Position numbers and translations under genes: made by a program. Source: Watersipora subatra (taxonomy: Eukaryota > Bryozoa > Gymnolaemata > Cheilostomatida > Watersiporidae). From it: a stretch of 64,000 bases of DNA. Position 1 is the first letter of the stretch. Each line of letters starts with the position of its first letter. The notes below the pieces were generated by a model, which did not search any database, was not told where the DNA came from, and worked only from the letters and a program-made list of their open reading frames with translations. The DNA lies in NCBI RefSeq assembly GCF_963576615.1, contig NC_088709.1, positions 14,080,764-14,144,763 on the forward strand. The letters are read 5' to 3'. Below, one piece after another: positions 34,101 through 35,087 of this stretch.

Positions 34101-35087
34101 TTTTGTGGTCGCTTTGAAAATGAACTAATGTACATGTATCCATATTTTTTATCATTTGTGATTTTTTGTTTAATGTGATCTGATTGTTAGGATGTTTCTA
34201 GATTAAAATCGATAAAACTTGATTGCAATTGAAATGCTCAGAAGAAAAATACTTGCGAACTGACATCACTAGTTGCTATTCTCGTGATAGTTAATATCGG
34301 CTATTGCGTTCAAGTTGAAGCCTTACGCGTGCGTCTGTCTCTATTCTGTTTGTCTCTTAACAATTATTGACATCATAATTGCACTTTCCCTTGATCTGAG
34401 CATTTTAATCGAGAATGAGTTTTATTGATTTCAATCTTGAAACATCCTGGCAATCAGATCATCTGAAGCATCAAAAGCATTTGCCAATGATAAAAAAATG
34501 TCGATGCTTTCTCATAAAATCTACTGAAGTTTTGTGTAAATTCATCTTCAAAAGCTCTCTATATCGGAGTTATTACACCCTGAAACTTGGCATTGCAGGG
34601 TTTTGGAATAGGTAATTTCAAAGCTCTATATGTCAGAGTTATTACACCCTGAAACTTGGCATTGCAGGGTTTTCGAATAGGTAATTTTAAAGCTCTCTAT
34701 GTCAGAGTTATTACACCCTGAAACTTGGCATTGCAGGGTTTTGGAATAGGTAACTTCAAAGCTCTCTATGTCAGAGTTATTACTCCCTGAAACTTGGCAT
34801 TCCAGGGTTTTGGAATAGGTAACTTCAAAGCTCTATATGTCAGAGTTATTACACCCTGAAACTTGGCATTGCAGGGTTTTCGAATAGGTAATTTTAAAGC
34901 TCTCTATGTCAGAGTTATTACACCCTGAAACTTGGCATTGCAGGGTTTTGGAATAGGTAACTTCAAAGCTCTCTATGTCAGAGTTATTACTCCCTGAAAC
35001 TTGGCATTGCAGGGTTTTGGAATAGGTAACTTCAAAGCTCTCTATGAAGCGGTCGAGATGGGCCAGATCAATCGTGGAAATACCTAA
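16114..35087 (+). CDS. HPD: 4-hydroxyphenylpyruvate dioxygenase, 11 exons (first ATG exon not found)
   Basis: HPD converts 4-hydroxyphenylpyruvate to homogentisate, the second step of tyrosine catabolism, with Fe(II) and O2. The exons are 16114-16140, 16302-16364, 16519-16623, 18018-18063, 18437-18519, 25757-25953, 27696-27936, 30239-30310, 31200-31316, 33202-33324 and 35013-35087. They total 1149 nt, which is 382 codons plus TAA, and every junction is GT-AG with matching phase. Animal HPDs are about 390 residues long, so only a few N-terminal residues are missing. The three iron ligands of the family are visible: His in DHIVGN (exon 7), His in GVQHIA (exon 8) and Glu in LFLEVIQ (exon 10). 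Also present are the N-terminal VTFWVGNA, the GLETGSRE and TYGDTTHT stretches, and the C-terminal GFGIGNF helix region. The introns are packed with transposons, and the longest (18520-25756) is about 7.2 kb. No frameshift is seen, so the gene is probably functional. No canonical AATAAA lies just after the stop, although AATAAG occurs at 35181. Confidence 0.95.
16302..16364 (+). CDS. HPD: HPD exon 2 (start of the N-terminal VOC-type domain)
   Basis: It encodes 21 residues including [12 protein letters not shown], a hallmark of the first vicinal-oxygen-chelate-fold half of HPD. The acceptor is TTGTAG and the donor GTACGT, in phase 0 at both ends. Confidence 0.93.
16519..16623 (+). CDS. HPD: HPD exon 3
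   Basis: It encodes 35 residues with YYCTRMGF and [10 protein letters not shown], strongly conserved in animal HPD. The acceptor ends TTAAAG. I chose 16519 over an AG four bases later because it keeps the phase and the family spacing. The donor is GTCAGT. Confidence 0.93.
16684..17010 (+). repeat. degenerate minisatellite of about 41 bp in an HPD intron
   Basis: About eight diverged units of the form AACTAACAAGGTTTGCGATT plus GGTCTGTAACCTACCTTTT. Two copies of a different unit of about 43 bp (TTTTGATTGGCTGTTGCTTC) follow at 17006-17092. Confidence 0.72.
18018..18063 (+). CDS. HPD: HPD exon 4
   Basis: It encodes [15 protein letters not shown] plus one base, so it ends in phase 1. The acceptor is TTTCAG and the donor GTAGGC. 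It matches the beta-strand of HPD that ends in a polar, Asn- and Pro-containing turn. Confidence 0.9.
18437..18519 (+). CDS. HPD: HPD exon 5
   Basis: It completes a phase-1 codon and encodes [18 protein letters not shown], the family's [10 protein letters not shown] block. The donor used is GTGAGT after AGA. A competing GTAAGA donor six bases upstream would drop two residues relative to the family. The next intron is about 7.2 kb and holds two transposons with a nested MITE. Confidence 0.93.
18777..19005 (+). repeat. repeat A, first segment (interrupted copy)
   Basis: It begins TACAGTGCAGTCTCAGGATA and ends GGTTATGAT at the LTR. The same sequence occurs at 1838-2116 (reverse), 61640-62075 (+) and 62640-63115 (reverse). 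The remainder of this copy lies at 23750-23915 and 25034 to about 25120. Confidence 0.8.
19006..19238 (-). repeat. 3' LTR of LTR retrotransposon 2
   Basis: It is 233 bp with the same ends as the 5' LTR, and longer through an internal AT-rich insertion near 19100-19170. Confidence 0.85.
19239..19250 (-). other. polypurine tract of LTR retrotransposon 2
   Basis: On the minus strand this is GGGAAAGGGAGA, directly before the 3' LTR. Confidence 0.78.
19541..20843 (-). pseudogene. integrase remnant of LTR retrotransposon 2, interrupted by a MITE
   Basis: The start (20704-20843) reads [16 protein letters not shown] 357-bp insertion (20347-20703) then cuts the zinc-finger region just before [12 protein letters not shown]. 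The core follows at 19808-20346: [16 protein letters not shown], the second Asp in SISDNGPQY and the Glu in NGATEQAVQ. The first acidic position, an Asp in this family, reads Glu (GSELFFF). The C-terminal part runs frame-broken to about 19541. Confidence 0.85.
20347..20703. mobile_element. PIF/Harbinger-type MITE nested in integrase
   Basis: It is 357 bp with terminal inverted repeats of about 30 bp, of the form AGCC..GTTCCCATATACGTCG and then CAAAGCACC. A perfect 3-bp duplication TTA flanks it (20344-20346 and 20704-20706). A 3-bp TTA/TAA target is typical of PIF/Harbinger. Removing it and one TTA restores continuity of the integrase finger. It is GC-richer than its surroundings and has no transposase. 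Confidence 0.85.
20862..21469 (-). pseudogene. RNase H remnant of LTR retrotransposon 2
   Basis: The block 21248-21469 carries [16 protein letters not shown], the RNase H start with its catalytic Asp. The block 20862-21164 carries the later part with [16 protein letters not shown] and [10 protein letters not shown], typical of the Ty3/Gypsy RNase H to integrase transition. Stops separate them. Confidence 0.82.
21470..22528 (-). pseudogene. reverse transcriptase remnant of LTR retrotransposon 2
   Basis: The open block 21794-22528 has [34 protein letters not shown] and [15 protein letters not shown]. The catalytic VHMDDA follows, and the frame is lost directly after the two aspartates. Thumb-like sequence continues in broken frames to about 21470. 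Confidence 0.85.
22559..23470 (-). pseudogene. gag-protease remnant of LTR retrotransposon 2
   Basis: A capsid-like N-terminal part (23124-23411) overlaps in a different frame a 240-codon block (22559-23281). That block has two CCHC fingers ([14 protein letters not shown] and [14 protein letters not shown]). It ends in an aspartic protease start, [13 protein letters not shown], where the usual DTG-type motif reads DTS. The frames break between the parts. Confidence 0.82.
23554..23749 (-). repeat. 5' LTR of LTR retrotransposon 2
   Basis: It is 196 bp with ends TGTTGT...ACAACA. On its inner side the plus strand reads GGACACCA, so a CCA-ended primer site abuts it (about 23536-23553). The tRNA is not identified. 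Confidence 0.85.
23750..23915 (+). repeat. repeat A, second segment
   Basis: It continues repeat A after LTR element 2 (ACGTTGCAATGTGC, then TTTAGCTTACTAAACAC). It ends at a hAT insertion in ATTTTTAT. Confidence 0.75.
23916..25033. mobile_element. hAT element 1 with transposase remnant, in an HPD intron
   Basis: It is 1118 bp with inverted ends TAGAGCTGCACAA and a perfect 8-bp duplication ATTTTTAT (23908-23915 and 25034-25041), the hallmark of hAT. On the minus strand near 24262-24150 it keeps the end of a hAT transposase: [14 protein letters not shown], then [13 protein letters not shown] and LNSW, the C-terminal dimerisation block. The rest of the gene is lost, so it is non-autonomous. It is inserted in repeat A. 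Confidence 0.9.
24150..24280 (-). pseudogene. hAT transposase C-terminal fragment
   Basis: About 40 codons are readable: [19 protein letters not shown] and [19 protein letters not shown]. This matches the hAT family C-terminal block (usually P-S-E-R-x-F-S, then N-V). The serine usual before Glu is Cys here. Stops lie on both sides. Confidence 0.82.
25034..25120 (+). repeat. repeat A, third segment
   Basis: It resumes with ATTTTTATCTAATTTACTGA and AAATTTTATCACCTATTAGT, matching the end of the copies at 28600-28680 and 61960-62030. Confidence 0.7.
25757..25953 (+). CDS. HPD: HPD exon 6
   Basis: It encodes 65 residues plus two bases, with [30 protein letters not shown] and GEFLPGY. The acceptor is TTGCCAG and the donor GTTAGT at 25954. 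This donor gives the phase 2 needed by exon 7, and the joined linker then has nearly the same length as in vertebrate HPD. The reading frame stays open to 25981, but that extension is intronic. Confidence 0.93.
26062..27519. mobile_element. Tc1/mariner-type element M1, longest copy, in an HPD intron
   Basis: It is 1458 bp with ends CCG(A/T)AAAACCT and, inverted, AGAGGTTTTACGG, flanked by TA on both sides. Near both ends are runs of the type TTGACCGCCACCTCCAATTG. A short frame at 26735-26830 ([14 protein letters not shown]) may be a coding relic, but I do not recognise it. Confidence 0.78.
27696..27936 (+). CDS. HPD: HPD exon 7 (first iron-binding His)
   Basis: After one base that completes a codon, it encodes 80 residues. 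DHIVGNQP carries the first Fe(II) ligand. [20 protein letters not shown] and KMPINEPA follow, all diagnostic of HPD. The acceptor is TTTGCAG and the donor GTTGGT. A truncated hAT end starts only 19 bp beyond the donor. Confidence 0.96.
27956..28053 (+). mobile_element. truncated left end of the hAT element 2 family
   Basis: It begins TAGAGATGCCCCAATTC and has the CAGCCGATTCAGATACTGAT subterminal block, as at 36320. It stops after CAGATCTTTTGTGT, where a mariner fragment begins. No right end or target duplication is seen. Confidence 0.8.
28054..28537 (-). pseudogene. mariner-type transposase N-terminal fragment
   Basis: On the minus strand a 72-codon frame (28110-28328) encodes a mariner helix-turn-helix region: [16 protein letters not shown], then [19 protein letters not shown] and SGRPASART. 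After a TAA stop the same frame continues with [16 protein letters not shown] to 28055, so the stop is a lesion within the gene. The 5' terminus (about 28500-28537, minus strand TGCGAGGTCTGGTCCAAAAG) looks like a mariner terminal repeat. Everything 3' of the second helix-turn-helix is missing. Confidence 0.85.
28709..28875 (+). repeat. polypurine (GGA/GA-rich) tract in an HPD intron
   Basis: About 167 bp, almost only A and G on the plus strand, with a few scattered pyrimidines. The open frames on both strands here (Pro/Ser/Leu-rich or Glu/Arg/Gly-rich) come from composition and are not genes. Confidence 0.9.
29106..29972. mobile_element. TA-flanked inverted-repeat element in an HPD intron
   Basis: It is 867 bp. 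The ends are CCGTAAGTCCTCATTCTCAA and, inverted, CCGTAAGTCCTCATGCTCAA, each followed by GCCGC, with TA on both sides. GCGGCTTG-type motifs recur inside both ends. No transposase is seen. A Tc1/mariner-type MITE is likely; it is distinct from M1. Confidence 0.82.
30239..30310 (+). CDS. HPD: HPD exon 8 (second iron-binding His)
   Basis: It encodes 24 residues, [18 protein letters not shown] and on. The His of GVQHIA is the second Fe(II) ligand. The acceptor is CTCACAG and the donor GTGAGT, in phase 0 at both ends. Confidence 0.95.
30345..30515 (+). repeat. solo arm of the foldback family, in an HPD intron
   Basis: It matches the right arm of the foldback element: TAACTGTTCGTTTTTGAGC, AGAGTAAGACATGGTGAATC and TTGCAAGTCAATCTTTAAG. 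Confidence 0.75.
30675..30910 (-). mobile_element. SINE-like element S1, reverse copy
   Basis: On the minus strand it reads ATGAGAGATCATCCGGCGTG, then a tRNA-like part with a box A-like TGGTGCAGGTGCTAGAG and a box B-like GAGTTGAAGTC. It ends GACAGACACCGCTCATACTA and TAGTAAAG. The same order occurs at 60066-60305 (+) and 52990-53190 (+). Confidence 0.68.
31200..31316 (+). CDS. HPD: HPD exon 9
   Basis: It encodes 39 residues, including [13 protein letters not shown] and LREKL, which form the conserved helix of the C-terminal domain. The acceptor is ACGCAG and the donor GTATTT, in phase 0 at both ends. Confidence 0.94.
31563..31934 (+). repeat. repeat R1 copy in an HPD intron
   Basis: It begins TATATATATATTTCTCAAAG and ends GGGCAACGCCGGGTGGCAC and AGCTAGTA. 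It holds about 130 bp of extra AT-rich sequence near the right end. It lies in the intron between HPD exons 9 and 10. Confidence 0.8.
33202..33324 (+). CDS. HPD: HPD exon 10 (iron-binding Glu)
   Basis: It encodes 41 residues: [19 protein letters not shown] and then [16 protein letters not shown]. The Glu of FLEVIQ is the third Fe(II) ligand. The acceptor is CTGTAG and the donor GTAATT, in phase 0. The intron that follows carries a 34-bp minisatellite and the 69-bp splice-site array. Confidence 0.96.
33769..34050 (+). repeat. 34-bp minisatellite in the last HPD intron
   Basis: Eight full units and a partial one, of the form ACTTGGTTGACTGCCCAACT plus GCAACTGTGAGATA. Units alternate between CCCAACT and CCTAACC versions. 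The array ends at 34040 with a 10-bp partial copy. Confidence 0.92.
34551..35047 (+). repeat. HPD: 69-bp array that repeats the 3' splice site and start of HPD exon 11
   Basis: Exon-like starts after GCAG occur at 34599, 34668, 34737, 34806 (here CCAG), 34875, 34944 and 35013, exactly 69 bp apart. Each unit has the intron end ACTTGGCATTGCAG and then GGTTTTGGAATAGGTAACTT and CAAAGCTCTCTAT, the first 33 nt of exon 11. The copy at 35013 is the real exon. The unit is 23 codons long. Each upstream copy hits an in-frame TGA 17 codons after its acceptor. Confidence 0.93.
35013..35087 (+). CDS. HPD: HPD exon 11 (C-terminal helix and stop)
   Basis: It encodes 24 residues, [17 protein letters not shown] and on to GNT, then TAA at 35085. 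This is the C-terminal helix that closes over the HPD active site. The acceptor ATTGCAG is the seventh copy in a tandem array of near-identical acceptors. Only this copy continues past LY into the authentic tail; the six upstream copies run into a TGA. Confidence 0.94.
   Translation, partial: GFGIGNFKALYEAVEMGQINRGNT

Follow-up and report, generated by a model that had tools for sequence, protein, structure and literature searches.

Seven copies of a 69-bp unit, each consisting of 35 bp of intron end and 34 bp of exon start, lie in tandem at the edge between intron 11 and exon 12 of HPD-B, one of two neighbouring HPD genes of Watersipora subatra. HPD encodes 4-hydroxyphenylpyruvate dioxygenase (HPPD) and belongs to tyrosine breakdown. 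The window analysed here is a stretch of 64,000 nt from NC_088709.1 (contig C2) in one assembly, GCF_963576615.1, and positions without a contig name are those of the window. The copies, their block structure, the single copy of the unit in the paralogue HPD-A and the local density of tandem arrays were observed directly. We consider it fairly probable that the array is a neutral, locus-specific minisatellite in a redundant and diverging gene, with the last acceptor favoured, some leak into the others and no dedicated regulatory role. That is, the array is probably a by-product of a genome prone to repeats and not a control device.

The 69-bp array and its single-copy counterpart

Tandem Repeats Finder places the array at 34546-35046, with a period of 69, 7.2 copies, 94% matches, 0% indels and a score of 895, consistent with a minisatellite, in which units of some 10-100 bp are repeated head to tail in one place. 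The original prediction, which was made from the letters of the window, described seven exon-like starts at an exact 69-bp spacing, of which only the last continues into the true C-terminus, and both the coordinates and the spacing hold. The acceptor and the first 11 codons of the last exon are indeed amplified, the reading frame is the same from copy to copy, and the acceptors end in GCAG in six copies and in CCAG in copy 4, as described. In copies 1-6 the reading passes through VRVITP to a TGA. However, the 11 residues said to precede VRVITP are exact in four of these six decoys, since copies 2 and 5 carry a Gly to Arg change (GGA to CGA) within the exon start.

In pairwise comparison, the units differ at 0-6 of 69 positions. 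No difference separates unit 2 from unit 5 or unit 3 from unit 6, which gives a higher-order period of 207 bp; unit 7 differs from units 3 and 6 by one intronic base, unit 1 differs from unit 4 at four sites, and unit 4 from unit 7 at two. The two identical pairs form the pattern expected from stepwise growth and a late duplication of a three-unit block.

When the genome (783.7 Mb) was searched at the DNA level with the array, the sole other place was C2:14064488-14064630, which is the last exon of HPD-A; a dispersed form of the unit was not found by this search, which passes over simple repeats and very common words. The single unit of HPD-A matches the units of HPD-B at 30-32 of 35 positions in the intron end and at 26-29 of 34 in the exon start. 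Because HPD-A has one unit, the single copy is likely to be the ancestral state, and the array is likely to be derived and private to HPD-B.

The unit is preceded in HPD-B by an intronic flank, CTTCAAAAGCTCTCTATA, which resembles the exon stretch CTTCAAAGCTCTCTATG at the unit end, and a related stretch, CTTTAAAAGCC, is present at the same place in the intron of HPD-A. Slippage or exchange between such short similar stretches would yield exactly such a unit. A 69-bp segment across the boundary may then have been tandemly duplicated into a locus-specific minisatellite, which may later have expanded in blocks of three units, and the array would have been tolerated in HPD-B because HPD-A still provides the ordinary enzyme.

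Tandem arrays are also present elsewhere. With arrays counted at a period of at least 10 and at least three copies, they occupy 2540 of 109763 bases around both genes and 1665 of 38940 bases in the two gene bodies, the 69-bp array included. Twenty control stretches, each 10 kb long (18 distributed along C2, the others on C1 and C3, one each), contain 37 arrays, which are present in 13 of the 20 and cover 21346 of 200000 bases, or 11346 of 190000 bases when one all-satellite stretch is left out. Tandem arrays thus make up 2-11% of the DNA sampled. The satellite stretch, C2:38000001-38010000, is tandem repeat throughout.

A motif pair was also noticed around the acceptor, CCCTG...CAGGG (34579-34601 and every later copy, with CTCCCTG in copies 4 and 7 preserving the pairing), for which the HPD-A equivalent is CCTTA...CAGGG. 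Read by eye, it is possibly a small hairpin over the AG, alike in all seven copies.

Choice of acceptor and the state of HPD-B

The acceptor signals are essentially equal among the copies, with the exceptions of G/C at -4 (copy 4), T/A at -22 (copies 4 and 7) and G/A at -33 (copy 1), and the whole terminal exon is present after copy 7 only. Each decoy would carry a working acceptor, while the last one would mostly be used, being the only one with the whole terminal exon behind it, and a fraction of transcripts would use the decoys and encode a lidless, dead enzyme. The exon-12 acceptor has 9 pyrimidines in 16 positions in both genes, where the range among 22 acceptors is 8-13; fewer are found only in exon 7 of HPD-A, and the number is equal in exon 7 of HPD-B. 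This low content is no more than a hint that exon context matters for the choice. When the 3' splice site of beta-globin constructs was duplicated, leaving 14, 55 or 205 nt of exon behind the proximal site, only the distal site was used, very inefficiently (PMC5389562). RNA structure that hides the decoys was considered and rejected, since the region 34520-35110 has a folding z of -1.21 and 16 of 100 shuffles fold equally well or better.

Use of the last acceptor with some leak is what we expect, as a judgement rather than a result, because exons 2-11 of HPD-B and the key lid residues are conserved. Between HPD-A and HPD-B, the nonsynonymous and synonymous divergences (dN and dS) of exons 2-11 are 0.028 and 0.153, a ratio of 0.18, and Q375, R378, G379, N380, F359 and F364 are kept in the tail; Q375 and R378 of the lid are kept in both genes if copy 7 is used in HPD-B. 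The constraint on exons 2-11 together with the kept tail residues argues that a full-length HPD-B would have been made for most of its history. As for the location of the array, an exon edge inside an array is a coincidence that requires no special cause, as such edges are no more frequent here than by chance.

Several points weigh against this reading. The count of exon edges inside arrays, 1 of 42 in both genes, is compared with about 1 to 4.5 expected from the array shares, an expectation that leaves out selection and for which one share includes the 69-bp array itself. The choice of acceptor was judged from the DNA of one assembly. In a potato gene with the same type of duplication, contrary to what is expected here, the upstream acceptor was used and a new intron was formed, with 106 junction reads, as given in the accessible part of PMC4974935. 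In addition, the excess of amino-acid changes in exon 12 can mean that, once the array had formed, the full-length protein became less important.

If exon 11 is joined to any of copies 1-6, the predicted protein ends shortly after ...RHNHQGF(G/R), so that the residues corresponding to F359 and F364 remain and those corresponding to Q375, R378, G379 and N380 are lost, in agreement with the original prediction that the C-terminal lid would lose its end through decoy use. In human HPD, the truncation deltaG379 keeps 1-5% of the activity, deltaR378 less than 0.1%, and Q375N is dead (PMC3739788, in part). Because the human truncations there abolish most of the activity, the decoy product without the end of the lid is predicted to be inactive. 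The last acceptor or a truncated isoform had been given as the only outcomes. Truncation stands, but two donor-like sites within the copies would permit further outcomes. The first, at exon offset 13, outscores 5 of the 10 real donors of HPD-B (all donor scores depend on the matrix used). Its use would produce a frame-breaking 13-nt micro-exon with a stop within a few codons, and the intron before the next acceptor would be 56 nt long. The second, at offset 33, is weak, with a score of -2.17 that is below 19 of 20 real donors; it would give an in-frame micro-exon of 33 nt, adding 11 residues per copy, and an intron of 36 nt.

Alternatively, the decoys may win, in which case most HPD-B transcripts would be lidless and inactive, and HPD-B would be turning into a pseudogene or acting as an inactive partner of HPD-A. 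We regard this as unlikely, although with a chance that should be taken seriously. The 35-nt intron end is complete in every decoy, and the exon start behind it is the same or nearly so; the potato case shows that an upstream acceptor can be used. Exon 12 also points in this direction, with dN 0.238, dS 0.267 and a ratio of 0.89. Compared with exons 2-11, it differs in changed versus unchanged nonsynonymous sites (Fisher, p=2.1e-6) and in the numbers of nonsynonymous to synonymous differences (Nd:Sd; p=0.045); however, the Nd:Sd contrast with exons 9-11 alone is not significant (p=0.11). In exon 12 the two genes agree at 16 of 24 residues, versus 337 of 358 elsewhere (p=1.3e-4). Exon 12 is not simply older, since its dS resembles that of exons 9-11 (0.28-0.32), and it is not generally variable, since human HPD and HPD-A share residues equally there (16 of 24) and elsewhere (237 of 356). 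With the human residue as arbiter, three changes in exon 12 fall on HPD-B, none on HPD-A and five are undecided, whereas outside exon 12 seven fall on each branch and seven are undecided, so that HPD-B has not evolved faster overall. The kept tail residues, the low dN/dS of exons 2-11 and the lack of any disabling in-frame change likewise stand against the decoys winning.

The same alternative draws on changes in the rest of HPD-B. The iron ligands H183, H266 and E349 are kept, as are Q265, Q334, Q375 and R378. However, the substrate-binding Gln251, termed a critical catalytic residue in the available text of PMC3739788, is Leu in HPD-B and Gln in HPD-A. Phe368 is kept in HPD-A and is Tyr in HPD-B, and the matching Streptomyces change, F341Y, lost about 80% of the activity (as cited in PMC3739788). 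Among 30 positions compared with human, HPD-A differs at four (S366A, F371I, E374D and L377D) and HPD-B at eight, namely these four sites and Q251L, A361I, F368Y and L381T. The exon-7 donor of HPD-B (25954) reads TCT/GTTAGT versus TCT/GTAAGT in HPD-A; its matrix score is the lowest among the 20 donors, although with 5 of 9 matches to CAG/GTAAGT it is tied with four others, and this splice site is possibly weakened. On this evidence HPD-B is a diverging duplicate, in which either HPPD function is being lost or the active-site lid is changing, and it is doubtful as an ordinary HPPD. A diverging duplicate makes the tolerance of the array easily understood and a tuning of HPPD activity unlikely.

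A more elaborate possibility, to which we give a small chance, is that the seven-way competition of acceptors is truly in use. It would yield a family of products (full-length, lidless and with one or more in-frame inserts of 11 residues), and concerted evolution would feed decoy mutations into the coding exon and reshape the lid, with A361I and F368Y common to all copies, of a duplicate already without Gln251.

Still less probable is nascent intron gain, in which the decoy acceptors and the internal donors would delimit micro-exons of 13 or 33 nt, as in the tandem-duplication model. The offset-13 site with its score and its 56-nt intron fits this idea, the offset-33 site was created by the duplication junction, and the potato gene used a cryptic GTAAG in the duplicated part of its exon (PMC4974935, in part). 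Nevertheless, the offset-13 site is also present in HPD-A and in the real exon 12 and would lead to an early stop, and the offset-33 site combines its poor score with a very short intron.

The original prediction proposed that the array could tune the level of active HPD according to how often the seventh acceptor is picked, and this is not supported; we consider it very improbable, marginally more so than intron gain. The AG, the frame and the stop are identical in kind across all copies, and of the four exonic sites that vary between the seven copies, three are synonymous (P about 0.047), too small a number to carry a conclusion. As the copies are young and near-identical, such kept features require no selection. 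Moreover, the array is absent from HPD-A, the gene that retains Q251 and F368, HPD-B without these residues would be a poor valve for HPPD activity, and comparable arrays are dense without any gene role. Finally, an assembly artefact, either a wrong copy number or two haplotypes placed side by side as HPD-A and HPD-B, is extremely improbable in spite of the single assembly, because the copies carry distinct changes and the two genes, with overall dS 0.16 and introns whose alignable parts are about 70-93% identical with large insertions between, are too distant for alleles.

Gene structure and neighbouring sequences

The exons are numbered 2-12 in our own scheme, the exon with the start codon being located in neither gene. 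HPD-A and HPD-B are tandem paralogues about 50 kb apart, HPD-A upstream. The 11 coding exons of HPD-B form a single open frame with no frameshift or stop, and exon 11 matches solved HPD chains (best E 1.3e-19), so the identification of the gene as HPD was correct, as was the position given for the end of exon 11. The features are collected in Table 1.

Table 1. Features of the two HPD genes and of the array at the last exon of HPD-B
Feature	Position	Strand	Details or basis
HPD-A, exons 2-12	C2:14044635-14064600	same orientation as HPD-B	11 exons, as in HPD-B
HPD-B, coding exons 2-12	16114-35087	+	tblastn, exon assembly
HPD-B exon 11	33202-33324	+	ends in ...RHNHQ, donor CAG/GTAATT; chain match, exon assembly
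Second minisatellite, HPD-B intron 11	33769-34049	+	34-bp period, 8.3 copies; matched once in intron 11 of HPD-A
Intronic flank	34546-34563	+	resembles exon-12 stretch 35030-35045 (CTTCAAA-GCTCTCTAT); candidate microhomology setting unit ends
Decoy unit 1	34564-34632	+	intron end 34564-34598, acceptor 34599, exon-like 34599-34632
Decoy unit 2	34633-34701	+	acceptor 34668, Gly to Arg
Decoy unit 3	34702-34770	+	acceptor 34737
Decoy unit 4	34771-34839	+	acceptor 34806 (CCAG)
Decoy unit 5	34840-34908	+	acceptor 34875, identical to unit 2
Decoy unit 6	34909-34977	+	acceptor 34944, identical to unit 3
Unit 7	34978-35046	+	real intron end, acceptor 35013
HPD-B exon 12	35013-35087	+	true C-terminus and TAA (at 35085); exon assembly
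Donor-like TAG/GTAAYT, exon offset 13	34612-34613, +69 each	+	internal, all seven copies
Donor-like TAT/GTCAGA, exon offset 33	34632-34633, +69 each	+	junction-made, six decoys

The unit of the 34-bp array in intron 11 of HPD-B matches one 31-bp stretch of HPD-A intron 11 at 87%. Further minisatellites of the window are located at 48291-48644 (36 bp x 9.8) and 61146-61439 (42 bp x 7.0), and intron 9 of HPD-A has arrays of its own at C2:14056018-14057135 (17 bp x 15.4 and 44 bp x 14.0).

Intron 6 of HPD-B (18520-25756) is 7237 bp long versus 864 bp in HPD-A, and on its minus strand matches to reverse transcriptase (21794-22558), integrase (19808-20461) and a hAT dimerisation region (24147-24287) were found. 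Intron 8 carries a fragment matching HTH_48 (Mos1 transposase) on the minus strand, at 28110-28343.

The search of the genome for the HPD family gave 17 scored matches, of which 14 are in HPD-A and HPD-B and three at C3:64908878-64915419. The latter is a third, distant gene of the family with several exons, ending in GFGAGNITALW as read by eye, which we take to be HPDL-like. It was considered as an outgroup for dating the 69-bp array and rejected as too distant.

Comparison with known systems

Since the copies share almost all local signals, the locus is a natural form of the classical experiment with duplicated splice sites, with HPD-A as the control. Such constructs reportedly go back to Reed and Maniatis in 1986. 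If the acceptor were chosen by position alone, HPD-B would make a dead enzyme, and if by exon context, the full-length protein. The array illustrates how the edge of an exon can be taken up by a minisatellite in a duplicated gene, so that coding positions become linked to copies that do not code; it gives no support to a mechanism that controls tyrosine breakdown.

The anatomy is of a known kind, a tandem duplication across an intron-exon edge, which is unusually long here and has a built-in single-copy control. A search of the open-access literature turned up no splice acceptor spanned by an array with more than two copies, and we do not claim that none is in print. As an HPD enzyme, HPD-B shares the iron ligands, Q265, Q334, Q375 and R378 with the family and departs from it by Q251L and F368Y. 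Compared with minisatellites and variable number tandem repeats, the array is alike in period, purity, block structure and the presence of nearby arrays of the same sort, and differs in that a splice acceptor and coding sequence lie within its unit. The laboratory pre-mRNAs with duplicated 3' splice sites, as far as described in the available part of PMC5389562, likewise set identical acceptors in competition, with a short stretch of exon behind the upstream ones; they are man-made with two sites, whereas HPD-B is natural with seven. The potato RNA-dependent RNA polymerase (RdRp) gene, in the accessible part of PMC4974935, resembles HPD-B in its tandem duplication across an intron-exon boundary and in a donor-like GTAA in the copied part of the exon. 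However, it has two copies in an internal exon and a new intron seen in RNA, whereas HPD-B has seven copies in 207-bp blocks at a terminal exon, known from DNA.

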